Source of the DNA: a virus
Length of the DNA stretch: 34,741 nt
Strand: one strand, 5' to 3'
Virus record (IMG/VR): IMGVR_UViG_3300042673_000319
Coordinates: 1-34,741 of that record
Shown here: piece after piece, positions 2,685 to 19,079 of the stretch
Layout: each line of letters opens with the position of its first letter
How positions within the stretch are numbered: position 1 is the stretch's first letter
Made by a program: the position numbers and the translations under genes
The notes under the pieces: model-generated
The model's input: only the letters and a program-made list of their open reading frames with translations
What the model was told of the DNA's origin: nothing
Databases searched by the model: none

Positions 2685-4280
2685 TTATTTATATTTGTCT
2701 AACCAGCCACCTTGTTTGTATTCAGGAGATTCAAAAGGCATCAGTCCTTCTGGAGGAGCATCTGTTGGTCCTTGATTTCCTAATCCTTTTTTACGATCAA
2801 GAAACAACTTTTGATTATATGCTCTTATTTCTTCATTAGTAAGTCGTCTTGATGTGCTAGTTGGTTTAGGAACTTCTTTATATCCTTGTAACCAATTTTC
2901 TTTATATAACTTAACATTAGGATTAGATGTAGATATAGGTGCTTTTGAATAAACAACTGGATCGTCAAACATAGGTCCAGTAAAACCCTGTGTATTCTCA
3001 TTTACAAAAAGTTCTGAATTTCCTTTTACTTCTGCCATATATGGTCCTTCATATCCTGCTCTTCCAGTAGCGTTTCTAAATCTTGTATCTAAAGGATATC
3101 CTTTATTATAATATGCATACTCTTGACCTAGTTCTTTTGGAGGTCTAACTATACCACTCTCTAGAGCATCTGCATATCCTCCTTCACCTATCATTCTATA
3201 ATAAGCATCTGTCTTAGGTTTAAATGCTAAAGGATTTAACTTATAAGCATTCTTTAAAGCTGTCTCTTCTGTAAGATATTTACCTGCAGCTTTAGCACCC
3301 TTACCAACAAGCTTACCTGCAAGTAGTCCACCTTCCATTATCATTGCTGCTTCTATAGCATCTTGTAGATTACCAGATGCTTTAGATCTAGCAAACTTAT
3401 TTAATGGTTTGTTTTCATCAGCTATTCTTTGTAACTTCTCTCTATCTAATCTCTCTGCTTCTCCTTTCTTAGGAGTGTATTGAGACATTGTAGTTCTGTT
3501 AGCATTTTGTCTAGCTAAGAACTCCTCAGCTTGTTTCTTTAAATCTACATTTAATCTTGTACCATCTTGAGCCATTGGATACTCTGTAACTTTCTCACCA
3601 TCAAATTTATAATCTTGACCAGGCTGCATCATTTTTGTATCACCTGTATCAGATACACCAAGTACAGGATAGTCAACTCCCTGCATAGTGATGTCATTAG
3701 AATTGATTTCTGTTATCTCACCTGGATAAGCTAATTGTCCTCTGTCATCTTTGATTACAGAGCCATTCTGAGCACTTGCTTTTGTCTTCTTAGTATACTT
3801 ACCATTAGCAGGAGCTGAGCCAGCTGTGCGTGCGTATGTGAATCCTACAGATCCTGGTAAAGATCCACCCATTTGAAGTGTTGCAAGTTCTGGATCAGGA
3901 TCTGTTCCTCCAGTAGCTTTCCAATTATTATCAAATACTATTGTAGCTCCACTTCTTGTTCTAACTTGCTTAGCACCAATCTTTTTAGCTTGTTTTGCCA
4001 TAGCTTCCCAATCAGGAACTTTTGATCCATCCTTACCAATTTTTTCAATGTCATCAATCACTGGAAAAGATTTAGCCTTTTGCATATACCCACCATTCTG
4101 AAACTGACCCCCCCATGCAGGAGAATAGTCTCTACCCTTAGTATTATATCCAAGTCCTACAAAGTCAGGACCTACAGATGCTTTTGCATCATTGTAGTTA
4201 CTTTGTTTGCCATAGTTATCCTTAGTCTTTTTCTTTAAGACCAAGCCACCTTGTTCATATTTGTCTAACCAATTTGCCAT
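2685..4280 (-). CDS. Cargo/ejection protein with C-terminal ADP-ribosyltransferase-like domain
   Basis: A 531-residue protein. The N-terminal half carries crAss virion signatures: GFTYARTAGSAPANG (146-160), KTKASAQNG (165-173), then blocks around YPGEITEI (185-192), ITMQGVDYPVLG (197-208) and VTEYPMAQDG (231-240). Residues 309-336 form a Gly/Ala-rich hydrophobic segment. After it, residues 347-460 look like a separate globular domain: YYRMIGEGGYADALESGIVR (360-379), an aromatic-rich stretch (387-410) and a GPYMAEVKG strand (412-420). This layout recalls ART/PARP-type toxin domains, but the assignment is inference. The motif WLDKY occurs at both ends (4-8 and 526-530) beside Gly-Gly. The start overlaps the upstream stop as TAATG. 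It is probably packaged in the virion and delivered into the host. Confidence 0.75.
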   Translation of the reverse strand: MANWLDKYEQGGLVLKKKTKDNYGKQSNYNDAKASVGPDFVGLGYNTKGRDYSPAWGGQFQNGGYMQKAKSFPVIDDIEKIGKDGSKVPDWEAMAKQAKKIGAKQVRTRSGATIVFDNNWKATGGTDPDPELATLQMGGSLPGSVGFTYARTAGSAPANGKYTKKTKASAQNGSVIKDDRGQLAYPGEITEINSNDITMQGVDYPVLGVSDTGDTKMMQPGQDYKFDGEKVTEYPMAQDGTRLNVDLKKQAEEFLARQNANRTTMSQYTPKKGEAERLDREKLQRIADENKPLNKFARSKASGNLQDAIEAAMIMEGGLLAGKLVGKGAKAAGKYLTEETALKNAYKLNPLAFKPKTDAYYRMIGEGGYADALESGIVRPPKELGQEYAYYNKGYPLDTRFRNATGRAGYEGPYMAEVKGNSELFVNENTQGFTGPMFDDPVVYSKAPISTSNPNVKLYKENWLQGYKEVPKPTSTSRRLTNEEIRAYNQKLFLDRKKGLGNQGPTDAPPEGLMPFESPEYKQGGWLDKYK

Positions 4281-5146
4281 TACTTGTAAGAGATTTGAGA
4301 TGGTGCAACAATGAATTGAGAAACTATATGAGCTGTAGAACTGTTATCTAAGATGTGTCTCACCTTAAGATCTTTAGCTCTTAGTGGTTCTTTCTTAAAT
4401 GATCTTTTTCCATAATCCATATTTGCTTGGTTTACAAGCTTATCTATTGATAAAGACTCACAGCTTGTTGTAAACAAAGGTACAGATTTACTTTTAATTA
4501 ATCCCCAGAAAGTATTATATTGATAGAAATTATCTGACTTAGTATAAGTGATAGTTTTACTTTCAGTATTATAGATTGGGTAGGTTAAGTATTGTTGTAG
4601 GTTATGCATTGGCTTTGGTACCAATTCTAATATACCTGTAGACTGTTGGCTATTGTATAGCACAGCTTTGTTAAACCATTGATTATCAACACTTATCTGA
4701 GCATTATCATTAAACACACCATCAACAATAGGTAAGTAGTTAAACACCTTACTGTAGTCTTTTATATTTTGAAGAATCTCATCATACGTTTGGTAGGCAA
4801 ATGGATACTCTATTATGTAAGGTTCTACGTTACCATAGTATTTATTGTAGTTAACTACATCAGTTAAGTGTCTCCATAAAGAACCTGTATTACATTCTGT
4901 GTAAGGCAATGCAGCAAGTTGTTCTATAGTGGCAGTGCCAATAGTAACTTGTAAAACTATATGGCATTTACCTGTAGATGTTATAGTAATTGTAGTGACA
5001 GAATTATCCACACTGACAGTATACCCATCAATAAGATTTTGTTTGGTTATATCAGTGCCCAAGACAGTCCCTAAGTTATCAGAGATATCAAAGGGTCCAG
5101 TTCTGCCACCTGAACATGTTAATCTTATTATTACTGTTTTAGCCAT
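4280..5146 (-). CDS. C-terminal part of split muzzle protein, fused to a GPF-type N-terminal domain
   Basis: 288 residues in two parts. Residues 1-72 are a small beta-rich domain (TVIIRLTCSGG, RTGPFDI, LIDGYTVS, STGKC) closely matching the N-terminus of the 187-residue protein at 14375-14938. Residues from about 85 on (SLWRHLTDVVNYNKYYGN, NVEPYIIEYPFAYQ, KSFxxEPLRAKDLKVRHIL-type ending, VSQFIVAPSQISYK) look like the C-terminal portion of the crAss muzzle/stabilisation protein. That portion is normally continuous with the protein encoded just upstream. It lies 10 nt after the muzzle stop and overlaps the next gene as TAATG. I infer a muzzle gene broken into two co-expressed parts. Recognition of the C-terminal part is from memory of the family, so moderate. 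Confidence 0.65.
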   Translation of the reverse strand: MAKTVIIRLTCSGGRTGPFDISDNLGTVLGTDITKQNLIDGYTVSVDNSVTTITITSTGKCHIVLQVTIGTATIEQLAALPYTECNTGSLWRHLTDVVNYNKYYGNVEPYIIEYPFAYQTYDEILQNIKDYSKVFNYLPIVDGVFNDNAQISVDNQWFNKAVLYNSQQSTGILELVPKPMHNLQQYLTYPIYNTESKTITYTKSDNFYQYNTFWGLIKSKSVPLFTTSCESLSIDKLVNQANMDYGKRSFKKEPLRAKDLKVRHILDNSSTAHIVSQFIVAPSQISYK

Positions 5147-5156
5147 TTATTATTTT

Positions 5157-8100
5157 TTAAAGACAATCTACTCCAGCACAAGATGTTACTGGGTCTGAAA
5201 ATAAACCAACTGATCCTTGAATTCTTCTATATCCATTAGCTGCACCTCCATAGTAACCAGCAGGAGCAGGTATGGTTAAAAACTGATCTACATACATAAC
5301 TGATGCAAATTCAAAATATGGAACACCATTATCATCTACCCAGAATTGAGTCACTAAGGTATATCCTGATGGTACAGGAACTATTGGAAGTTCTGAAAAT
5401 ATAAATGCACCAGAACTATTTACATATATTAACTTTTGTACACAACAAATACCAGTGTAAGGAGCATTTGTTTCATTATAACCAATAGCACTTGCATCCA
5501 AAGGTACATATGTAGGTGCTGGTGGTAATGTAGTAGTAGTGGTTGTAGTTAGTGTTCCACATTCAGCTATACCTGTTACTTCGCCATCAAAACCTGTTAC
5601 TTCATAAGTACAGTTACTTCCAGGAATATTACATGGTCTAGCATAGAACCCAGCAGGAGCAGGATTTCCAACACTAGGTAAAGAATAGAAATGACTTCCT
5701 AATACAATAGGAGTTTCAACTACTAATACATATACAGTTGTGAGAACATTAAGTTCATAATTATCACAAGCTTGGTTTGGATCAAATGCATTAAAACCAT
5801 ATTCTATAGTTGTCCATTCAGATTGTGTTGTACTAGTACTTGTAGTAGTTGTTATCTCACCACATGTTCCAACTTGAGTAGGCCCTATAACTATACCTGA
5901 AGCAGAAGGAGTTTGACCATCGCATAAACACCCACTACCTGAATCATTTGGACCTAAAGCGTTACTTTGAGGATTACCATTACAATCTGTCCACTGTACT
6001 ATTCCACCTTCTTCACCTGCTGTCCAAGTCCAATTGAAACAGCCAACTACACCAATTGATTGACAATAAGTTGTAGTGGTGGTACTAGTGGTACTTGTGC
6101 TTGTACTTGTAGTTGTACTTGTACTTGAACTTGTAGTAGTAGTAGTGGTTGGTGGTGGAACATATGTAGCTGTACCATTTAAAGCACACTCTAATGGAAC
6201 TGCTGTTGTAGTAGTTGTAGTGGTTGGAGAAGGTATCTCTGTAACAGCTACTGCTGATAATTCACATCCTTCATTTAATCCAGAATAGTAGAAACCATTT
6301 TCTCCTATGTAGAAATTAGGTATGTATGTATGGAAACTTACCCAAGCTTTGGTGTTCATGTTAAATGATGCAGTCCATGACTTATTGCAGAAGTATTCTA
6401 CATCTGTTAGATTTACATATCTTATAACTGATGTATTACCAGCCACTGGTTGATTTATATAAAACTTTTGTAAAGCTTCATTATAGTATATTTGCTTATT
6501 AGGTTGAGGGATATAATCTAACTTAGTTATAATTATTCTCTCAAACTTACTATCATATACACCATGTAAACCAAGACCATTGAAGTGGTTATCTATATTT
6601 GCTGTAGGGAAGTGTCTTAATATTTCAAATGCTAAATGGTCTGTAAAGAATCTGTTTAGACCACTACCAAACGCTGAGATATCTATTGCTTTGGTAGCAC
6701 CAGCTATCAAAAATATTTGACCTCTCTTAGCATCTATTGTTATTTGTCCATCAGGTATTTTAAGTAAGAACTTGTTTTGAGAACCTACATAACCTAGGTC
6801 AGTTTCAGCATAATCAATTGCAGGAGCTGATGTGAATAATGTAGGATTACCTAAGAACGCTGCCTGAGGACTACTTGTGTTCATTGTTAATAAGTTACCA
6901 TAAAGCAATGACTTGTTTTCAAATCTAGCTAGGGTAGCTTTATTCTGTATACCATCTAGTGATACTAACTTACCATAGTTCTGAGGGAAGTCAAAGAAAC
7001 TTATTGGACGATATATCAACCAATTATTAATTCTATTATCAGAATAACTTTCTTGTGGATCAGAGTATATAGCTCTGAATGGGAAGTATGTAAAGCAAAG
7101 TTGCTTTATCCAATCTGAAGGTAAATGAGAGAAAAAGTTCTCTGTGTTTTGTTTAGAGAAAGTTGTATTGTAATAGTATGTGTTATCAAGTGCAATAGGA
7201 ACTCTGCTTTCTTGGAACCAAGTATCAGGAATACCTGAGCTCACGTGTGGGTAGAAGTCACCCTCTAGGTTATTAAATGCCTGACGTAAGTCTACATTAA
7301 TAGAACTCTCTACATAGAAGTAAGGAATACCATAAGCAAATAGATACATCTTACCATCATAGATATAGTTTTGTGAACCAGCTAATACAGTACCTGGAGC
7401 AGGAGTTGTAGAAGAGGTAGTGGTAGTTGTACTAATATTATCCACTATATAATCATTAGGACAGTCTAAATAGTGAGCTTTGGTAGAAATGATATTCTTC
7501 ATTAAAGTACCACCTACAAAGTAATCAGATAATTCAGATCTAGCAGAATACCAATATTGTGGATAGGCTACATTACCTAACTCATCGTAGTAAATGTCAC
7601 TATCATCAGGAGCTCCCACTCTATTATCAATAAAGAAAGGAAGCTTAGTTTTGAATCCAAACTTACCAATATATGTATCACCACCAAATATTACTTCAGT
7701 GGCTGGAAGAGAACTAAATATTCTTTGGAATCCTGTATCAATTGTTTGATAAGAATATATTTGTCCATATTGATTATTATTAATAGCCTTTATTGAAGCA
7801 TAATAAGATACAACTTTTATATCTTCTTGCTGCTCAGGAGCACTACAGTTATTTGCTTGAGAAATAGTAAATCTTGAATCATCAGATATCTGACTTACAC
7901 CTGCTATGTATAAAGAAGGAGTTTGATTAGGGAATGGTAGAGGATCAATAGGATTTACTACCCCAGTTCTTTTTTCAATAGTTTTAGTATATATTGAAGA
8001 CTCTCTATTAAAGTTATTAAGATCATGATTATCACCTACATTCTGTACACCTGGGAATACATATTGACACTTATCAAGTTGTCTTTGTTTAATACCTATA

Positions 8101-10775
8101 TTACCAGTTAGAGGATTAGTAGCAGCATTCTGTATATCTGCACTATAGTCATAGCTAGAGACAGAGTTAAATGATTGTGCAAAGTTCTTTCTACTAATAC
8201 CATTTAGATAGATTTGTAAGTAAGTTTGATATGCTGTAAAGAATGCTACAGCACTAAATCCTCCTAGGTCAGCAATCTTCTTGCTAGAGTTTAAGGCATC
8301 TATTTGAGTTTGTCTGGTAAGAAGCTTGTACATAGAATGCTTCTGTACCTCAACAAAATGAGATCTTCCACCACCAAACAATACACTTTCTAATTTAAGA
8401 ACATTACCTAATGTAGGTTGTCCAAAAGAAGTTTCTGGTGAATTAAATACTTGTCTATATTTAGATTCAATACTACTAAATCCATCTAAGTTATTTGGAA
8501 AACAATTAATATTTACTTTACTATTTTCCACTATAGTGAAACGATCACATCCTGATACAAATGTAGGAGCACCTATTGAATTAACTGTCACTGATGTATT
8601 AAATGGTACAGTGATAGTTTGTAAAGCTCCAGTTATAGGATCTAAATAATTAAATACAGGTGCTGAAAAAGTTACACATTTATAAGTTGAAGAGATTATA
8701 TAAGTGCTAGATGTAATGTTTGTAAATGTAGCTGCTCCTGTATTTACAACAGGAAGTGTAAGAGAACATATTTCAGTGGTAGCTGTAGTAAAATTTTGAC
8801 TTGATACAGTGCCTGTATAACAATCTGTATATTGTAATGCACCATCAACTGTAGCTGTCACTTGGAAAGTATCACATTGAGACATGTAAGAATTGCTCTT
8901 CTCAAGTAAGAATGGATCTTTAGCAAGGTCATTATATGGATAGTTAGGATAGTAAAAGTTTGTACCTTCTCTATTGTACTTACCTACATTTCTCAATATA
9001 CCTTTAGCAATAATAGATTTGTTTGCACTTCTATTTCCTCTCACTATTTTAAATCCAACAATTGAAGCTTTTTCTTCAGTTGTTAAAGTAGATGTTTGAA
9101 TTAAGAATGCTACCTGTTGTACATCTATTTTTACACCTATTGGATAGATGGCATTAGAAGTTTGCATGATTGGTTCTATCTGACCACCTGCATATGTAAT
9201 AGGAGGAGTCTCAAAGTAAGGAGAAACTAATACATCAGGAAATTTGTGATGTCTAATTTTTTGATCAGCAAGGTCTCCCCATACATCTACATTACAAGGA
9301 TATTTTTCATCTTGAGCTTCCCAATAGGCAAATTCTCCAGATTGATATGGATATGCTTGTCCTATATTTTCATTGGTAGAAACAGGATATGTAGTGGATA
9401 CAGTGGCAGTGTTATATATCTTCCAATAAGGTTGAGGAGCTCCATCTCCTATGTAATCTGCATTAGCTGTTGTTACATCTGGCTGAGATAACTCTTGAGC
9501 ATTTTTAACTCTACCAGGAATATGAAAGCCATCTGTTTGTTTACCATTATCTAATAAAAAGACTATCTCAAATGCATATACTTCATCTCTTAGATATCCT
9601 CTAAGATTAGCTGTATAGAAAGGATCTGCATAGCTATTACCTGCTGGTAACTTATAAGTTTCCCATTCTAATGTTATTTTACTAGCAATTGATTGATAGT
9701 TAATTCTATCAACAGAAGTAAGATTGTCCCAAACGATATAGTCTTGCACACTTGTAACATCTTGTGCAATATCATAATAAGGGAACTTCTCTAATATGTC
9801 ACCTAAGCTTAAAGGTATTTGTGTTTGGTTTTGACCTGAATAAGTGGCTGTTGTTGTCTCGTCTTGAATCTTATAAGTTCCTACAAGTTCTACACTTGTA
9901 CCATTATTAATAGTCTTAATAACAGCTAAATTAAAATATTGGAAGTATCCTGTAATATCTACATTACCAATACTTAACAATATAGACTTTCCTACAGAGT
10001 ATTGAAAATCAGGAGTAGTTATCTCTGTATTTGCAATAGATGTAGGATTAGTTACAGAATAATAGGATGTGTATCCATCTCCTGAAGCATTACAATATTG
10101 AACAGCAAACTGATATGTACCTGCTTGTAAATCTCCACCTACAGCTGTTCCAGTAATATCTATGCTAGGAATAGAGAAGTTAGGTTGTACTTTTAACTTA
10201 TTACAGTCAAGTATAGGGGTGACAGTTGGCTCACAACTTGAAGCTTCTGGATCATAAGTTGAAATATAGGGAACTTGTTCAATGTTTATATATCTTCTTG
10301 GATTTAATCCATCAGTCCAATATACCTCAGTGGTACAGTTTGTAATCTTATGTACAGCCTTATGAATAGGATAGTTTATATCAAAGTTTAAGCATACAGA
10401 GTCAGCACATACAGTGATTCCTAAATCAGGATATTCTGTACATAGTGTATGATATTCACAATCATTGTTATCCATATATCCAATTTCACTTCCTCCTGTT
10501 TCAGGATTAGCTAAAAAGAATATGTGTTTGTTTTTCTCTTGAATGAAATGAGTTCCAATTAAATGATAGCCTTCAGGAAACTCTAAACAAGCTTCATTAC
10601 TTGGCTCATTTTGATAACTTACAGAATTAGCATCAAAGTTTTCTAATGCTCCATTTAGGGCATAAGAAAGTTTACCCTTCTGTATTTGGTTTACAGAAGA
10701 ATCCATATCTAGTCCAACTCTGCCAAGATTATACTCTTGTCTTATGTTAGATGTTCCTTCTTGGTTATCTGCCAT
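5157..10775 (-). CDS. crAss-like muzzle (tail stabilisation) protein with Thr-linked adhesin-like extensions
   Basis: About 1872 residues from the ATG at 10775 (MADNQEG...). An in-frame ATG at 10826 exists, but it lies well inside the upstream gene and the family-like N-terminus begins at 10775, giving an 11-nt overlap. The first ~1500 residues resemble the crAss muzzle/stabilisation protein: QNEPSNEACLEFPEGYHLIG, a segment around KNKHIFFLANPETGGSEIG, and an ending NKSWTASFNMNTKAWVSFH then PNFYIGENGFYYSGLNEG. In this family it forms the distal tail muzzle. Thr/Ser-rich linkers occur near residues 1115, 1520, 1550, 1640 and 1745. The last four string together small Cys-containing domains, two sharing a PAPAGxY motif. 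That ~350-residue tail is unlike the core and looks like an adhesion add-on. The expected C-terminus seems to be encoded by the next gene. Confidence 0.85.
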   Translation of the reverse strand: MADNQEGTSNIRQEYNLGRVGLDMDSSVNQIQKGKLSYALNGALENFDANSVSYQNEPSNEACLEFPEGYHLIGTHFIQEKNKHIFFLANPETGGSEIGYMDNNDCEYHTLCTEYPDLGITVCADSVCLNFDINYPIHKAVHKITNCTTEVYWTDGLNPRRYINIEQVPYISTYDPEASSCEPTVTPILDCNKLKVQPNFSIPSIDITGTAVGGDLQAGTYQFAVQYCNASGDGYTSYYSVTNPTSIANTEITTPDFQYSVGKSILLSIGNVDITGYFQYFNLAVIKTINNGTSVELVGTYKIQDETTTATYSGQNQTQIPLSLGDILEKFPYYDIAQDVTSVQDYIVWDNLTSVDRINYQSIASKITLEWETYKLPAGNSYADPFYTANLRGYLRDEVYAFEIVFLLDNGKQTDGFHIPGRVKNAQELSQPDVTTANADYIGDGAPQPYWKIYNTATVSTTYPVSTNENIGQAYPYQSGEFAYWEAQDEKYPCNVDVWGDLADQKIRHHKFPDVLVSPYFETPPITYAGGQIEPIMQTSNAIYPIGVKIDVQQVAFLIQTSTLTTEEKASIVGFKIVRGNRSANKSIIAKGILRNVGKYNREGTNFYYPNYPYNDLAKDPFLLEKSNSYMSQCDTFQVTATVDGALQYTDCYTGTVSSQNFTTATTEICSLTLPVVNTGAATFTNITSSTYIISSTYKCVTFSAPVFNYLDPITGALQTITVPFNTSVTVNSIGAPTFVSGCDRFTIVENSKVNINCFPNNLDGFSSIESKYRQVFNSPETSFGQPTLGNVLKLESVLFGGGRSHFVEVQKHSMYKLLTRQTQIDALNSSKKIADLGGFSAVAFFTAYQTYLQIYLNGISRKNFAQSFNSVSSYDYSADIQNAATNPLTGNIGIKQRQLDKCQYVFPGVQNVGDNHDLNNFNRESSIYTKTIEKRTGVVNPIDPLPFPNQTPSLYIAGVSQISDDSRFTISQANNCSAPEQQEDIKVVSYYASIKAINNNQYGQIYSYQTIDTGFQRIFSSLPATEVIFGGDTYIGKFGFKTKLPFFIDNRVGAPDDSDIYYDELGNVAYPQYWYSARSELSDYFVGGTLMKNIISTKAHYLDCPNDYIVDNISTTTTTSSTTPAPGTVLAGSQNYIYDGKMYLFAYGIPYFYVESSINVDLRQAFNNLEGDFYPHVSSGIPDTWFQESRVPIALDNTYYYNTTFSKQNTENFFSHLPSDWIKQLCFTYFPFRAIYSDPQESYSDNRINNWLIYRPISFFDFPQNYGKLVSLDGIQNKATLARFENKSLLYGNLLTMNTSSPQAAFLGNPTLFTSAPAIDYAETDLGYVGSQNKFLLKIPDGQITIDAKRGQIFLIAGATKAIDISAFGSGLNRFFTDHLAFEILRHFPTANIDNHFNGLGLHGVYDSKFERIIITKLDYIPQPNKQIYYNEALQKFYINQPVAGNTSVIRYVNLTDVEYFCNKSWTASFNMNTKAWVSFHTYIPNFYIGENGFYYSGLNEGCELSAVAVTEIPSPTTTTTTTAVPLECALNGTATYVPPPTTTTTTSSSTSTTTSTSTSTTSTTTTTYCQSIGVVGCFNWTWTAGEEGGIVQWTDCNGNPQSNALGPNDSGSGCLCDGQTPSASGIVIGPTQVGTCGEITTTTSTSTTQSEWTTIEYGFNAFDPNQACDNYELNVLTTVYVLVVETPIVLGSHFYSLPSVGNPAPAGFYARPCNIPGSNCTYEVTGFDGEVTGIAECGTLTTTTTTTLPPAPTYVPLDASAIGYNETNAPYTGICCVQKLIYVNSSGAFIFSELPIVPVPSGYTLVTQFWVDDNGVPYFEFASVMYVDQFLTIPAPAGYYGGAANGYRRIQGSVGLFSDPVTSCAGVDCL
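6070..6160. repeat. Low-complexity Thr/Ser codon tract in the muzzle gene
   Basis: Trinucleotide-rich tract of ACN and AGT/TCN codons (read leftward) encoding a nearly pure Thr/Ser linker of about 28 residues. Similar shorter tracts lie at 5525-5560, 5825-5860, 6205-6225 and 7405-7435 in the same gene, at 14665-14710, at 16135-16165 and at 21245-21320 in other genes. Length changes by whole codons would keep the frame. Confidence 0.8.
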
Positions 10776-11721
10776 ATCTTGAGCTTCTGTTTGGTAATTC
10801 GTATTGTGCAAAGCGTTGTAAATCATTTCTTACTCTTCTTTGCTTAGTCCATACATCTTGTTTCTTAATCTCAGTGTAAGCCATAATAAAAGCTTCTTCT
10901 GAAAGTTGCTTATAGTAAACTAACTTAGCTTGTATTTGGTTGAATGTCTCATCATTGATTTGGTTAGATAAGGTTTCAAAAACTTTATATTTAATAAAGG
11001 CTTCTACGTATTCTCTTATACGATAGTTATCAGGAATTAATTGATTACCTGTAGCATCATAGTCTGTAGCATAGAAAATCATATGAACAACACCACAGCT
11101 GAAGTTTGTAACAAACTTATTATCTCTAATATCAAAGCTATCATAACCAGCACTTCCTGGAGTGAACTCATGCACAGGGGGTGCATTTGTATAAAACTGC
11201 CAAGCATCTGTATAGCTTACATCACATTTACCTTGGCAAGATATATTGCCTGGTTTTAATAAATACTCTTTTCTTATACCTCTAGCTATCTGTTGATTGG
11301 TTTTATATACAGCTTGGATGATATCAGGCATACACGTAGGACATCCTGTTGTACATTGTGGATTAGTACATGGTACTCCACCACTAATAACAGGAGAGAC
11401 TTGTATTGTTGTTTGGCTAGCTGCCTGAGAATAGAATGAGTTAGCTGTTTGATATGGAAGCTGAGGAATCTCTGTACACATCCAAGCTTCTCTAACAGCA
11501 AAGAAGTTGTCAGGAAGTCTAGCTTCATATCCAGAAATATCTAATGTCTGTTCAGCAATGACATAACTTGATCTACCCATCTTTTGTAGACACTTGTCTA
11601 AATAGGTGGGGAACATTAAATCATCAACTGCTCCTGTGTCAAAGTAAGATTTTAACTCTTCTTTAACAATTGAATAGATTGGCTCAGGAGAGACAAAGTT
11701 GTATCTGTAATAGTATGCCAT
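10765..11721 (-). CDS. Tail tubular / ring protein (crAss-type, P22 gp4-like position)
   Basis: 318 residues. The N-terminus (SPEPIYSIVKEELKSYFD, then YLDKCLQKMG and ISGYEARLPDNFFAVREAW) is typical of the tail tubular/ring protein encoded directly before the muzzle in crAss-like phages; such proteins build the tail barrel below the portal. A Cys-rich loop around residues 115-132 (CTNPQCTTGCPTCMP) and C-C pairs nearby may bind metal. The C-terminal region (VRNDLQRFAQYELPNRSSRYG) is basic. It lies 6 nt after the IHF-like gene and overlaps the start of the muzzle gene by 11 nt. Function inferred from family and order. Confidence 0.8.
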   Translation of the reverse strand: MAYYYRYNFVSPEPIYSIVKEELKSYFDTGAVDDLMFPTYLDKCLQKMGRSSYVIAEQTLDISGYEARLPDNFFAVREAWMCTEIPQLPYQTANSFYSQAASQTTIQVSPVISGGVPCTNPQCTTGCPTCMPDIIQAVYKTNQQIARGIRKEYLLKPGNISCQGKCDVSYTDAWQFYTNAPPVHEFTPGSAGYDSFDIRDNKFVTNFSCGVVHMIFYATDYDATGNQLIPDNYRIREYVEAFIKYKVFETLSNQINDETFNQIQAKLVYYKQLSEEAFIMAYTEIKKQDVWTKQRRVRNDLQRFAQYELPNRSSRYGR

Positions 11722-14374: not shown

Positions 14375-14938
14375 TTAGCATTGGAACTCATAATATTCAA
14401 AACTGCCACTTGTAATATTCCAACATATATTCTCTGAATCATAGAATAAAGCAGTGATAGGAGCACCTACAGCGTTTCTAGCAATTGCTGTACATGTTAT
14501 AGAACTGCCTCCTCCTAGGCCTGCAAATGAATCACCATTGGCTTCAAACAATGCATAGTCAGAAGCATCTAAGTATATTCTTAAAATTGAACCTGTAGGA
14601 CATCCATCATATCCAGCATAACGTCCTATATCAGCTAAATATAATTCATCTGGATTAGGGGTTGTAGATGTAGAGGTTGTGCTTGTACTACTTGTAGAAG
14701 TGGTGGTGGTTGTTGGAGCTCCAGATACAATTAAGTAAAGGTCTCTTTGACAAACTCCTGTAGATCTTACAAGAACTTGTGTAGTTCCATCTGGAGCTAG
14801 GCTTGAAGTATATCCAGCAATAAGAGCTGCTCTAGAAATACCAGTTTCAAATGCTGTTGTGTAACCATTTGCATTTGAGTATAAGTTGAATGGACCTGTA
14901 TCAGATCCTGCTAGGGTAAGTGTTATTATTACTGTCAT
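14375..14938 (-). CDS. Small virion adhesion protein: GPF-type domain, Thr linker, C-terminal domain
   Basis: 187 residues in three parts. Residues 1-74 form a beta-rich domain (TVIITLTLAGSDTGPFNLYS, LIAGYTSS, STGVC) homologous by eye to the N-terminus of the 288-residue protein at 4280-5146. Residues 75-95 are an almost pure Thr/Ser linker. Residues 98-187 form a small domain starting ELYLADIGRYAGYDGCPTGS; the propeller protein at 15892 has a similar YYLAD segment right after its Thr linker. There is no signal peptide. It is the last gene before a strong terminator and is probably a tail or fibre tip component; binding target unknown. Confidence 0.65.
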   Translation of the reverse strand: MTVIITLTLAGSDTGPFNLYSNANGYTTAFETGISRAALIAGYTSSLAPDGTTQVLVRSTGVCQRDLYLIVSGAPTTTTTSTSSTSTTSTSTTPNPDELYLADIGRYAGYDGCPTGSILRIYLDASDYALFEANGDSFAGLGGGSSITCTAIARNAVGAPITALFYDSENICWNITSGSFEYYEFQC

Positions 14939-14949
14939 AATTATTATTG

Positions 14950-15876
14950 TTATGGTCTTACTAAAACTAAAAATCCTCGTCTAAATCCTGCACCATCTCC
15001 TAAGTTTATACTATAGAAATATGTTCCGTCAATAGCATCTGTTCCTACATTATTGTACTTACCATTCCAAGGAACATATACAGCTCCTGAATAATTAGCA
15101 TACCAAACATTTTGACTTATATCAAAAATTTCCCATACTGCATTTGGATAACACGTATAGTTTAAAAGTTCCCATGTACCACCTCTTTTGCCTTGCCATT
15201 GCCATGTGTCATCTATACCATCACCATTGGGAGAAAATCCCCCTGAAAATAATATCTGTGTATATGCACATGGTCCTGGAGGTGGGGGAGGTGGTAAAGA
15301 ACAACCTCCACTAATTCCAAGAGGTGCTGATATCAATTGTACATTAGTTGATGTACTATAACAAGAACCATCACATATACCTGACATTGCACAGTTCCTA
15401 TATGTATAAGTTCCAAATTGTCCAAATCCTTGATATTGACCTGCATTTACATTAAGATTTGTAATGAGTGTATCATTTATTGTATAAGGAGGAATATCTT
15501 CTTGTTCAAAATAATCATACTGAACTTCAAAAGTTAAAGTAGTTGGTGTATAATAAGCATTGCCAAACTGATCAATAAGAGATATTGTCCAAGTCTCATA
15601 TGTATCTGTATAACTATTACAACCTGGATACGAGTTATTAGTTATAGTTAAATTATAACAAAGTAAAAATGGTGTAGTTTGTGGAACTATATCCTGATAT
15701 GGAGGAAGTCTATTTCCAGTATATCCAGATAATGCAGCTGTATCTGCATAATAATTTGTAAGAATAAAGTCTTTTGTAGCACATTGATTTCCACTAGGAG
15801 GATTTGCTCCTGGTTTTTGAATTAATCCCATTGTGGTTAAATCTGTATATGTTACTAAAGCATTATTTGTTTTCAT
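14950..15876 (-). CDS. Virion protein with C-terminal CHU_C-like (type IX secretion) domain
   Basis: 308 residues. The N-terminus carries a fibre attachment-like segment (NQCATKDFILTNYYADTAAL, about 29-48) also recognisable in the propeller protein. The middle is a beta-rich Tyr/Thr-rich region, then a Pro-rich linker (PPPPPPGP, about 195-202). Residues 210-308 match the gliding-motility-associated C-terminal (CHU_C) domain: FSPNGDGIDDTW (214-225), a YPNAVWEIFD strand (243-252), VPWNGKYN (268-275), then DGTYFYSINLGDG (283-295) and a final GFLVLVRP. In Bacteroidota this domain ends type IX-secreted surface proteins and is usually about 85-100 residues. It lies 15 nt after the propeller gene. 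A host-derived adhesion or surface-mimic role is inferred. Confidence 0.72.
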   Translation of the reverse strand: MKTNNALVTYTDLTTMGLIQKPGANPPSGNQCATKDFILTNYYADTAALSGYTGNRLPPYQDIVPQTTPFLLCYNLTITNNSYPGCNSYTDTYETWTISLIDQFGNAYYTPTTLTFEVQYDYFEQEDIPPYTINDTLITNLNVNAGQYQGFGQFGTYTYRNCAMSGICDGSCYSTSTNVQLISAPLGISGGCSLPPPPPPGPCAYTQILFSGGFSPNGDGIDDTWQWQGKRGGTWELLNYTCYPNAVWEIFDISQNVWYANYSGAVYVPWNGKYNNVGTDAIDGTYFYSINLGDGAGFRRGFLVLVRP

Positions 15877-15891
15877 TTAACTACAATTGGT

Positions 15892-17451
15892 TTATAATAT
15901 ACAAGCTCCATTACAAGTTGTGGCAGATGGAAGAGTAAGTAATATTGGAGTACTACCTGAACTAGTTGATTGTGTTATTTGATAAACAAATCCAGTTCCA
16001 TTTAAATCTGCATAGAATCTATTTATTATAACAGAAGTTCCAGTTGGAAATCCTACTAGTACATTTGTACTTGTTATATTACAACCTGAACAATTATATT
16101 CATCTGCTAAATAATAATCATAATTTGGATTTGCTGTGGTAGATGTTGTAGTTGTAGTGGTACCAGGAATATCAAGAAATCTTGACTTACTTAATCCTCC
16201 AAAAGTATAAGCTGTTGGAATAGGTTGTGACGCCCAACTTGACCATGTTATACCATTGTTATAAGTTATTTCAGCACTGTCTATATATGTTACCAATGCA
16301 AAAGTTCCATCTGAATTAACAAATACTCCTCCTGGTGTTTGTCCAATTGCTGGAATTGGTGGATTAGTATCAAAGACAGTAAAGCTAACACCATAATTTG
16401 TAGAGAAGTAAAATTTATTTAATGTATTATTAGTATTGACTAATGCTACTAACATATACTGTCCATTCTCAGACATATCACAATAGAGTGCTCTATAATA
16501 TTGATCATATGTTTTTTCAATAAATGATGCACCATAGTTAGAAGATAAATATATCCTTCCTTCTCCTTGTGTATTACCTGTACCAAAACCAGACATTTGT
16601 GATAATAATTGATATTGTCCTGAAGTATTTATAGCTACATCTGTCCAATATTTTAAATTATAATCACCACTAACACTAAATGACACTCCAAAGTTAGAAG
16701 ACTTAATTATTCTAGATCCCCAATCAAATGAGTTATTTTGTTTATTTACAACACATGTAATATATCTACCATCACCAGAACATGCTATTTTTGGATAAGG
16801 AATTTCTATAAGTTCATTAGAACCAATAGCAGAATAGTAAATTTCACTCCAAGTAACTCCATAGTTAGATGATTTACATATAGATGGTCCTACTGTGTTA
16901 CTACCATATGTAATTATATACATATATTGACCATCGCTTGAAACAGCTGTTCCAACAATACTTTGAATTGAAATAGGTGATGCTGGTAATGAACATGAAC
17001 GTGTTGTCCATGTTACTCCATAATCACTTGAGACTTTTATATTATTAGTTTGTGTACCTGTTAATACATATTGTCCTCTACCACTTCTAGAAACACTATA
17101 TCCAGTAACAGTAGTACTTGACCATGTTATACCTGAGTTACTTGAATATATTACAGTTCCATAGGTTGGTACACCTGGTGGAGTATAAGGATTTACGTCA
17201 TCAACTCCATATATTCTATTAGAATATAAAAGAGGCTCCAAATCACTTTTAACAACTAGTTGATTAGGAAATTTACTAGAAAAGCTTGGATAGGAAGTAT
17301 CTAAGGCAACATAAGATGATGCCTCAGTTTTAGTTATTTGTTTTTGACTTACAGGAATAGTAGAGGTAGGAATAAATACACCAGTATCTACACCATCCTG
17401 AAGATTATTACAAGAAACTGTTTGATTACTTGCTATACCTGACCAACTCAT
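15892..17451 (-). CDS. Seven-bladed Asp-box beta-propeller tail/fibre protein
   Basis: 519 residues. Seven Asp-box/BNR motifs (SxNxGxTW type) occur at 103-110, 141-148, 194-201, 251-258, 303-310, 350-357 and 397-403, most alternating with SxDGQYxL-like strands; this suggests a closed seven-bladed propeller. Residues 1-75 look like an attachment domain (VSCNNLQDGVDTGV, then QITKTEASSY and NQLVVKSDLEP). After the propeller come a Thr linker (431-439) and a small C-terminal domain starting YDYYLADEYNCSGC. Asp-box propellers occur in sialidases and in non-enzymatic binding proteins; no sialidase catalytic set was recognised, so glycan or surface binding is more likely. Coupled by TAATG to the collagen-like fibre gene. 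Confidence 0.75.
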   Translation of the reverse strand: MSWSGIASNQTVSCNNLQDGVDTGVFIPTSTIPVSQKQITKTEASSYVALDTSYPSFSSKFPNQLVVKSDLEPLLYSNRIYGVDDVNPYTPPGVPTYGTVIYSSNSGITWSSTTVTGYSVSRSGRGQYVLTGTQTNNIKVSSDYGVTWTTRSCSLPASPISIQSIVGTAVSSDGQYMYIITYGSNTVGPSICKSSNYGVTWSEIYYSAIGSNELIEIPYPKIACSGDGRYITCVVNKQNNSFDWGSRIIKSSNFGVSFSVSGDYNLKYWTDVAINTSGQYQLLSQMSGFGTGNTQGEGRIYLSSNYGASFIEKTYDQYYRALYCDMSENGQYMLVALVNTNNTLNKFYFSTNYGVSFTVFDTNPPIPAIGQTPGGVFVNSDGTFALVTYIDSAEITYNNGITWSSWASQPIPTAYTFGGLSKSRFLDIPGTTTTTTSTTANPNYDYYLADEYNCSGCNITSTNVLVGFPTGTSVIINRFYADLNGTGFVYQITQSTSSGSTPILLTLPSATTCNGACIL

Positions 17452-19079
17452 TATTTATTTAATTTAGCTTCTAACTCAGCAATACGTTTTTCTAGTTGAG
17501 CAATCTTCCAGCTATGTACTTGTGTATAATCCACTACTAAGAAACCATCATCTTTTACTTCTATAGCATCAGGAAGAAACTGTTGTACTTGTTGTGCTAT
17601 GTATCCCCAGTGTTGTTTAGTATCTCTTTCTGGATTATTCCAAGCATACATTACAGTTTCTATATTTTCTGATTGAATAGCACCTAAAACAGTTTTAAGT
17701 CTTAAGTCAGAGTTTTGGAAGAAAGAGTCTGCATATATTGAATTACCACTTACATATACACTTGAGTTTGTAAATCCAGAGTTTGCGTTAGTACATATAA
17801 CTATTGCTCCTGCAGTTGCTGGAGAGATAGTTGTAAATCCAGGACCAGTTGGGCCAGTAGGGCCAGTTGCTCCTTGGGGACCTTGGGCACCTTGAGGACC
17901 AGTAGGACCAGGTCCTCCTGTTGCTCCTTGAGGTCCTGTAGCTCCCTGTGGTCCAGTTGGACCAGGACCTCCTGTAGGACCTTGTGGACCAGTAGCTCCT
18001 TGTGGACCTTGAGGGCCAGTGGGACCAGCAGCACCAGAAGTACCAGCTGTTCCTGTTGCACCACTAGAGCCAGTAGCTCCAGATGTGCCAGCTGTTCCTG
18101 TACTAGTTCCTGCTGTAGCTGATGTACCAGAACTAGCTGATGTACCTGCTGTACCTGATGTACCTGCTGGTCCAATAGAACCAGAAGTACCACTTGTTCC
18201 ATTACCACCAGCAGCTCCAAATAAGTTTACAATCCAAGCTGCATATATTCCTGAACCTGTTGTTGCTACTATATTAACAACCATGACACCTGTAAGGCTA
18301 TCATAGCTTGTAACAGTGCCTTCCATTGTATTAGAACCATCATATGCCAAAAGTATTGTTTGAGCAACACTATAAGCTAATCCTGTACCAGTAGTTAAAG
18401 TTTGAGTACCATTTCCTATTGTTAAAGATGTGACAGAAGATGATAGGTATCTATCTCCATCTAAACCAGCTGTACCAGAAGTACCTGCTGGTCCTATTGA
18501 ACCTGACGTTCCTGCTGTTCCTGCTGGTCCTATTGAGCCTGATGTACCAGATGTACCCATTGTACCATCTGCAGCAGATGTACCTGAAGTTGCAGAACTT
18601 CCTGAACTTCCAGAAAGACCAGAAGAAGCAGATGTACCATTAGTTCCAGAAAGACCAGCAGAACCTGATGTACCATTAGAACCTTCTCTACCAGAACTTC
18701 CAGAGGTTCCACTAGAACCAGTTTCACCACTTGTGCCAGATGAACCAGCAGCACCACTAGCACCTGAGCTACCTGAAGTGCCAGATGAACCACCAGGTCC
18801 TGTAGCACCTGAACTACCAGATGTTCCAGAGCTTCCTGTTATACCACTAGAACCAGAAGTTCCAGAAGTACCATTAATACCAACAACACCATTGCAAAGA
18901 GCGTCATCTATTTTTGATAGAGCACAGTCTAAGTTATCTCCAGTGTGAATTCCTGAACAAGGAAGGTTTGGTCCATTATATATAACATTACCTGCTGTGG
19001 TTGCACAAGGAAGTGAACTACAGTTTTGGTTAGGATGATAGTAAGCATTGTAACAAGGATCTCCAGGATTGCAAGCCAT
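17451..19079 (-). CDS. Collagen-like tail fibre with C-terminal S74 self-cleaving chaperone
   Basis: 542 residues. The N-terminus (1-66) is Cys-rich and contains [19 protein letters not shown] (32-50), shared with the collar protein encoded upstream. Two Gly-X-Y collagen-like blocks follow: 67-208 (mostly GTSGSSG) and 289-414 (changing to GPTGPQGA). They flank a small beta domain (209-288, starting [16 protein letters not shown]). The C-terminus is an S74 intramolecular chaperone: NSDLRLK (456-462), with Ser457 and Lys462 as the likely dyad, then [13 protein letters not shown] and a terminal coiled coil ([10 protein letters not shown]). S74 domains drive trimerisation and then cut themselves off, so the mature fibre probably ends near residue 456. 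Likely a host-contact fibre. Confidence 0.88.
17838..18215. repeat. Collagen-like Gly-X-Y repeat block 2
   Basis: Nine-base periodicity encoding about 42 Gly-X-Y triplets, moving from G-T-S/G-S-S units to G-P-T/G-P-Q/G-A-T units. It is the C-proximal half of the fibre shaft. Confidence 0.85.
18456..18881. repeat. Collagen-like Gly-X-Y repeat block 1
   Basis: Nine-base periodicity encoding about 47 Gly-X-Y triplets, mostly G-T-S and G-S-S, with a few breaks near residues 149-170. The opposite strand stays open over this block and gives Val/Pro-rich spurious frames. Confidence 0.85.

Follow-up and report, generated by a model that had tools for sequence, protein, structure and literature searches.

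In the window, as the whole analyzed stretch of viral DNA is called here (34,741 nucleotides, positions 1 to 34,741 of IMG/VR virus record IMGVR_UViG_3300042673_000319), the crAss muzzle is encoded as two chains. The first (N-chain) stops within the β-propeller, and residues 88-288 of the second (C-chain) are the missing C-terminus. The comparisons below support the two-chain muzzle as a state derived from one-chain muzzles. It is probably a propeller built from several chains, whose opened hairpins bear interchangeable modules for host contact. The names GPF and CxLxGxA used below are labels coined in a preliminary description of this DNA or in the present analysis. The features are the following, with lengths in amino acids (aa):

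10765-11721, minus strand: ring protein gene (Pfam CrAss_Ring_1, E 1.9e-8), which precedes the muzzle N-chain gene
5157-10826, minus strand: muzzle N-chain gene, 1889 aa from the first ATG (10826) or 1872 aa from M18 (10775)
6246-10826, minus strand: muzzle body of the N-chain, with the IG and crass domains and most of the propeller (Pfam and PHROG matches, one-chain alignment, end of the hidden Markov model match); YYSGLNEG, ending at 6267, holds the final conserved muzzle residues
5160-6245, minus strand: variable tail of the N-chain, with Thr/Ser linkers and three blocks (~5856-6065, 5556-5825 and 5160-5525)
6168-6188, minus strand: first CxLxGTA repeat (CALNGTA), from motif counts against shuffles and the DNA comparison with locus L018
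5147-5159, minus strand: N-chain stop codon (5157-5159) and a 10-base gap with two TAA in the C-chain frame
4280-5146, minus strand: C-chain gene, 288 aa, the next gene after the N-chain (stop codon at 4280-4282)
4886-5146, minus strand: GPF domain, the first ~87 residues of the C-chain (GPF profile; Ig/FN3-like in the predicted model)
4283-4885, minus strand: muzzle C-terminus on the C-chain, predicted to hold the last propeller strand (LWRHL, 4865-4879) and the ring-joining (platform) domain (phrog_15100, fold match to 7qol_P, hhalign to gp44)
14375-14938, minus strand: separate GPF protein of 187 aa with a Thr/Ser linker and tail, the second match of the 288-aa protein in the window

The N-chain matches the Pfam family crAss_MUZ (PF25731) at E 9.3e-32, with 110.6 bits where the cut-off is 27; it also matches PHROGs 37948 and 15100, which are virion structural proteins. 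C-chain residues 89-286 match phrog_15100 solely at profile positions 1589-1781 of 1783 (E 5.8e-11). Taken alone, the C-chain has no Pfam match, and a PDB sequence search returned nothing for the N-chain and only matches at E 0.21-0.39 for the C-chain. In Leptolyngbya phage Lbo-JY46, N-chain residues 55-1525 and C-chain residues 89-267 map to adjoining stretches of a single 1654-aa gene, and the same layout is found in Flavobacterium phage Fpv1, in csAssE-Sib (annotated 'Muzzle protein') and in MT837925. The junction lies at N-chain residue ~1516-1520 and C-chain residue 88. The break falls in a short turn: intact muzzles read F.TG, a short stretch and then (V/L)WSH, and in the window the N-chain exits after FYYSG and the C-chain re-enters at LWRH.

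These results bear out much of the preliminary description, which had an N-chain following the crAss muzzle before passing into foreign-looking Thr-linked domains; Thr/Ser linkers and foreign-looking blocks do occupy 5160-6245. It also had a 288-aa gene that opens with a GPF-type domain recurring in the window (at 14375-14938, 38% identity over residues 3-75) and continues as the missing C-terminus, on which the end of phrog_15100, the one-chain alignments and the predicted fold (Z score 8.4) agree. Alignment to muzzle homologues and a search for unsplit relatives found both parts adjoining in one-chain genes, with 32 intact loci. Although the two open reading frames (ORFs) lie in different frames, the pair is still filed as a crAss muzzle because a single chain is usual in the family, not defining. 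The ratio of nonsynonymous to synonymous substitution (dN/dS) between the window and eight relatives ranges from 0.17 to 0.29 in the N core, from 0.08 to 0.35 in GPF and from 0 to 0.15 in the muzzle C-part; purifying selection thus acts on both halves, and both chains are therefore maintained.

The spread of the split state was followed in non-random samples of loci. Three scans of viral contigs, with the window and named phages included, gave 183 loci (149 split, 27 intact, two with the N part only, one with the C part only and four with neither). Three further scans raised the total to 313: 247 split (174 distinct), 32 intact, 11 with the N part only, one with the C part only and 22 with neither. 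Some contigs carry more than one locus id, 'distinct' refers to differing N-end plus C-chain sequence, and the 32 intact loci include repeats (L110, L182, L185-L187 and L267). A scan with the 288-aa protein as query favors split loci by construction (79 split and none intact among the best 80 of 404); a profile scan, checked with an intact sequence, gave 22 intact, 56 split and two N part only among the best 80 of 541. The 34 of 313 loci that are neither split nor intact include pieces of the window (L102, L103) and crAss001 (L183, L184), whose muzzle gp44 is intact yet out of reach of the profiles used for classing. A scan with the nearest intact outgroup, L109, returned just the two contigs already in the set, so the pre-fission state is poorly sampled. 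A pattern search of genome contigs with the 288-aa protein gave 19 pattern matches and no relative, hence no hint of a host.

An assembly or sequencing error is ruled out by the same type of break in 174 distinct locus sequences and by the purifying selection on both halves. It is hardly credible that the two ORFs yield one protein through programmed frameshifting, read-through or an altered code, with the split existing in annotation only. Gaps are short in most loci, and in 34 of the 174 distinct loci the C-chain start shares its frame with the upstream stop, as that idea would have it, but the remaining 140 are divided between the other two frames, 70 and 70. An in-frame stop lies 10 codons or fewer upstream of the C-chain ATG in 132 of the 174, and other genes separate the halves in 60. 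In the window, TAA closes the N-chain, and the C-chain ATG comes right after two TAA codons in its own frame; on these grounds and on the spread of frames, frameshifting, read-through and recoding are rejected as very unlikely. ORFs of at least 60 aa between the halves are absent from 114 of the distinct split loci, single in 51, and number two in seven, three in one and four in one; these 72 ORFs comprise 50 with GPF, 11 muzzle pieces and 11 that are neither.

The origin of the break proved older than the preliminary description supposed. There, cassettes of this phage were held to have divided the gene; instead the split is common to a large clade, traces to a single fission on the trees, and the cassettes turn over later. 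The large tree comprises 121 rows after removal of near-identical ones, the careful tree 41 of them, without 16 intact rows on long branches and 64 split rows, and a quick-method tree 62 of 131 rows; a few N-row residues past the break were misplaced by MAFFT in alignment A4. On both the 121-row and the 41-row tree the split state requires three changes, which can be read as one fission and two returns to one chain; both trees rule out an insertion private to this phage. None of 200 bootstrap trees (0%) sets the split rows apart on one side of a branch, because the intact loci L115 and L118 are nested among them. The row nearest to L115 is the split locus L287, 87.9% identical to it over 1441 aa, whose N-chain tail is 537 aa long and whose C-chain carries GPF. 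L115 and L118 thus seem, from these sequences, to be re-fusions in which tail and GPF were lost. Import of an intact segment by recombination is the weaker alternative, because the C-parts of L115 and L118 (67 and 70% identical to that of the window) are nearer to it than those of the nearest intact outgroups L108, L109 and L113 (47-49%).

Further breaks have produced a third chain in 13 loci, 11 of them distinct (L020, L067, L191, L195-L197, L201, L203, L205, L207, L217, L236 and L248). In these, the N-chain already breaks off, with a Thr-linked end, at an earlier propeller hairpin; ~50-60 aa of propeller then come from a middle chain, which also carries another tail. Three origins of this state are required on the quick-method tree. 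In L203, a Fib_succ_major domain ends the N-chain. A separate observation concerns L173 (10905-11834), where CxLxGTA repeats precede GPF on the C-chain and one more ends the N-chain, as if the chain ends had once been continuous.

The tails that hang from the broken N-chain vary from 6 to 797 aa across split loci, and 169 of 174 contain a Ser/Thr run of at least five and 116 a CxLxGxA repeat. Counted over the first 112 distinct tails, the motif appears 135 times, spread over 86 of them, whereas 200 shuffles averaged 0.18; outside tails, it occurs nowhere in muzzle cores and 10 times in 1537 other ORFs longer than 100 aa. The tail of L165 (10885-11646) contains ~12-residue tandem CxLxGxA repeats and lacks a Thr linker where it begins. 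Similarity decays faster in tails than in cores: among pairs with 75-80% core identity, 117 of 195 have no detectable tail similarity, as against one of 33 at 95% or more. DNA of L018 is 95.7% identical to the window over 11721-6161, unalignable over 6160-5161 and 96.4% identical over 5160-4108, so that an unrelated sequence replaces exactly the block from the first tail repeat to the N-chain stop. The window tail is kept throughout in the closest relatives, L006 and L012, and one block of it is 62.5% identical to part of a GPF gene that lies between the halves in L053-L055, where the muzzle core is ~64% identical; altogether, 26 of 112 tails have a segment in common with some other gene. A Pfam scan that covered 92 of 149 non-redundant tails and between-halves genes found Fib_succ_major in four, DUF5122 in two, DUF5977 in two, and Lcl_C, Rax2, CBM_56 and ASPRs in one each.

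On the other side of the break, the GPF domain (~87 aa) is N-terminal on every split C-chain, and none of the 247 split loci has a C-chain without it. It is single and N-terminal in all 328 distinct ORFs counted, of which 170 carry the muzzle C-part and 158 are other proteins. A Ser/Thr run of at least six occurs in 0 of 169 C-chains and in 143 of 159 other GPF proteins. The GPF proteins of the window, outside the muzzle part, have no match in Pfam, PHROGs or NCBIfam. In the predicted C-chain model, GPF is Ig/FN3-like with weak matches, among them a type IX secretion C-terminal domain (8gl8_D; Z 5.9, root-mean-square deviation 2.5, 65 aligned), with FN3/Ig matches close by at 5.0-5.3.

The repeats and GPF might instead make the open ends into docks that hold other proteins, such as the separate GPF proteins, much as the fiber-dock loop of SU10 holds short tail fibers. 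According to the available text of the SU10 paper, that loop has three repeated Trp segments (PMC9509320), and both the excess of CxLxGxA over shuffles and the 158 further ORFs with N-terminal GPF, some between the halves, would agree with docking. The motif is missing from 58 of 174 tails, however, its ten matches in other ORFs point the other way, and the lectin-like tails resemble end-point adhesins; docking is an unlikely account of the open ends. Still more doubtful, indeed improbable, is that the split is a neutral leftover of an old, tolerated insertion that carried a stop and a start, with selfish or drifting tails that have no role in adsorption. What would suit such a leftover is that two lineages apparently returned to a single gene without tail or GPF, that some loci have very short tails and that the window tail contains no known domain. 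Against it, GPF is kept on the C-chain in every split locus under the low dN/dS given above, and tails stay in frame and are swapped for other whole blocks, some of them lectin-like or carbohydrate-binding.

Where the break lies on the particle was approached through predicted structure. Aligned with crAss001 gp44 (hhalign, probability 97%), a profile built from intact muzzles places the break at gp44 ~1234/1235. In the C-chain model (mean predicted local distance difference test score, pLDDT, 82.9), residues 94-280 superpose on residues 1242-1366 of the crAss001 muzzle 7qol_P at Z 8.4, with the next match at 5.9. The propeller was modeled on the C-terminal half of the re-joined relative L115 (mean pLDDT 66.9) rather than on the window chain. 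This model matches the crAss001 muzzle at Z 13.2 and the nozzles of Pa223, SU10, GP4, VP1, P22, Sf6, Pan3, Pam1, T7, Kp9 and others at Z 7.1-9.9, a range in which unrelated propellers reach 8.3. Among the 50 matches listed, 20, all unrelated propellers, end at residue 375, and 22 nozzle or muzzle matches extend to residues 549-568. The break falls in the model at the turn 365-371, between strands 361-364 and 372-375 and a single strand ahead of the platform. The C-chain thus seems to supply that strand, the last of the propeller, followed by the platform; in three-chain muzzles the second break falls at a turn near 315-317.

The preliminary description had put the new modules at the very tip of the tail. 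That placement is unsupported by the gp44 alignment, the matches of the C-chain and L115 models and the nozzle papers: the break comes just before the barrel-joining domain, and in related nozzles this end points toward the tail barrel, as the available portions of PMC6702177 and PMC9509320 describe. In the same portions, the T7 platform meets the adaptor and a fiber dock joins the propeller end to the platform on the outer surface (PMC6702177), and blade 1, off-axis, is where the SU10 chain both joins and exits the propeller (PMC9509320). The crass domain is the distal part of the crAss001 muzzle in the accessible text of PMC10172136. By analogy with the T7, SU10 and crAss001 layouts, the cassettes probably leave from an outer shoulder near the barrel rather than from the tip.

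The mechanism that we favor is a muzzle, the hexameric nozzle closing the tail end, that in this clade would be made as two polypeptides. The N-chain would fold the crass and IG domains and nearly the whole seven-bladed propeller; the C-chain would contribute GPF, then the final propeller strand, followed by the ring-joining domain by which the muzzle sits on the tail barrel, and the two chains would presumably co-assemble by strand complementation. Since the break is at the turn of the last hairpin, the C-terminus of the N-chain and the N-terminus of the C-chain would emerge from one surface point. A free C-terminus could bear a string of Thr/Ser-linked domains without the chain having to return into the fold, and the tail could therefore be swapped as a cassette, from the first CxLxGxA repeat to the stop codon. 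For the modules, binding to the host surface is the most likely role.

Several points weigh against this mechanism. The window tail (5160-6245) has no Pfam or PHROG match, C-lectin-like profiles included, and most tails of relatives match no family. Neither the Ser/Thr run nor the CxLxGxA repeat is obligatory, because five and 58 of the 174 tails, respectively, do without them, and a large tail module is dispensable, given that tails of only 6 aa occur. The junction of the L115 model is of low confidence (pLDDT ~41-46 around residues 351-390), and the probable location of the cassettes is read from homologues. In crAss001, as far as the accessible text of PMC10172136 goes, fibers dock on barrel hub proteins, not on the muzzle.

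Among known systems, crAss001 gp44 (PDB 7QOK/7QOL; PF25731) shares the sequence family, the propeller and the C-terminal ring-joining domain, but gp44 is one chain of 1371 aa, whereas in the clade of the window the muzzle has two or three chains, and its breaks bear GPF and variable tails. Length in the gp44 family varies through insertions into the crass and IG2 domains, not at this hairpin, in the accessible text of PMC10172136. The nozzle fiber docks of T7 (gp12) and SU10, described in the available portions of PMC6702177 and PMC9509320 as outer structure near the propeller-platform join, can be likened to the break; the L115 model aligns to the T7 nozzle 6r21_a at Z 7.8, no higher than unrelated propellers, and to SU10 7z47_G at Z 9.7. 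Those docks lie within one chain and hold fibers, whereas in this clade the chain is broken and the inserts are unlike docks. A literature search of titles and abstract starts, with most subscription journals outside its scope, found no report of a split muzzle or nozzle.

Other genes of the window lie near these. The 531-aa protein at 2685-4280 (minus strand) has a short motif at both ends, starting NWLDKYEQGG and ending QGGWLDKYK, and has no Pfam or PHROG match. The gene at 14950-15876 (minus strand) encodes a C-terminal CHU_C domain (type IX secretion type B sorting; Pfam above its cut-off, NCBIfam TIGR04131 below), a host secretion-signal fold within a tail-region gene. At 17451-19079 (minus strand) is a collagen-like G-x-x repeat protein to which collagen-like adhesin models matched below their cut-offs; we take its end to resemble an intramolecular-chaperone (S74-type) domain.

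The C-lectin-like domains Fib_succ_major and Lcl_C, present in a few relatives' tails and not in that of the window, hang there from the muzzle chain. C-lectin-like domains are known targets of diversity-generating retroelements (DGRs), and domain exchange is usually discussed for tail fibers, spikes and DGR targets; to our knowledge, it is not usually discussed for the DNA-gating nozzle. A broader reading, tentative and held at slightly less than even confidence, is that a virion β-propeller may be built from two or three chains, with strands or, in some phages, a whole blade supplied in trans. Its opened hairpins might then serve as standard, reversible sockets for host-binding modules that phages exchange, and fission as a device that lets a DNA-gating nozzle evolve; the whole-blade case rests on the middle-chain anchor of just ~50-60 aa. 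There is also a warning for annotation: the second half of the muzzle and the neighboring GPF proteins have no Pfam name and would be called hypothetical. A nozzle gene broken once, apparently re-joined twice and re-broken three times, each at a propeller hairpin, would offer a natural experiment in which a core machine acquires modular surfaces while keeping its fold.

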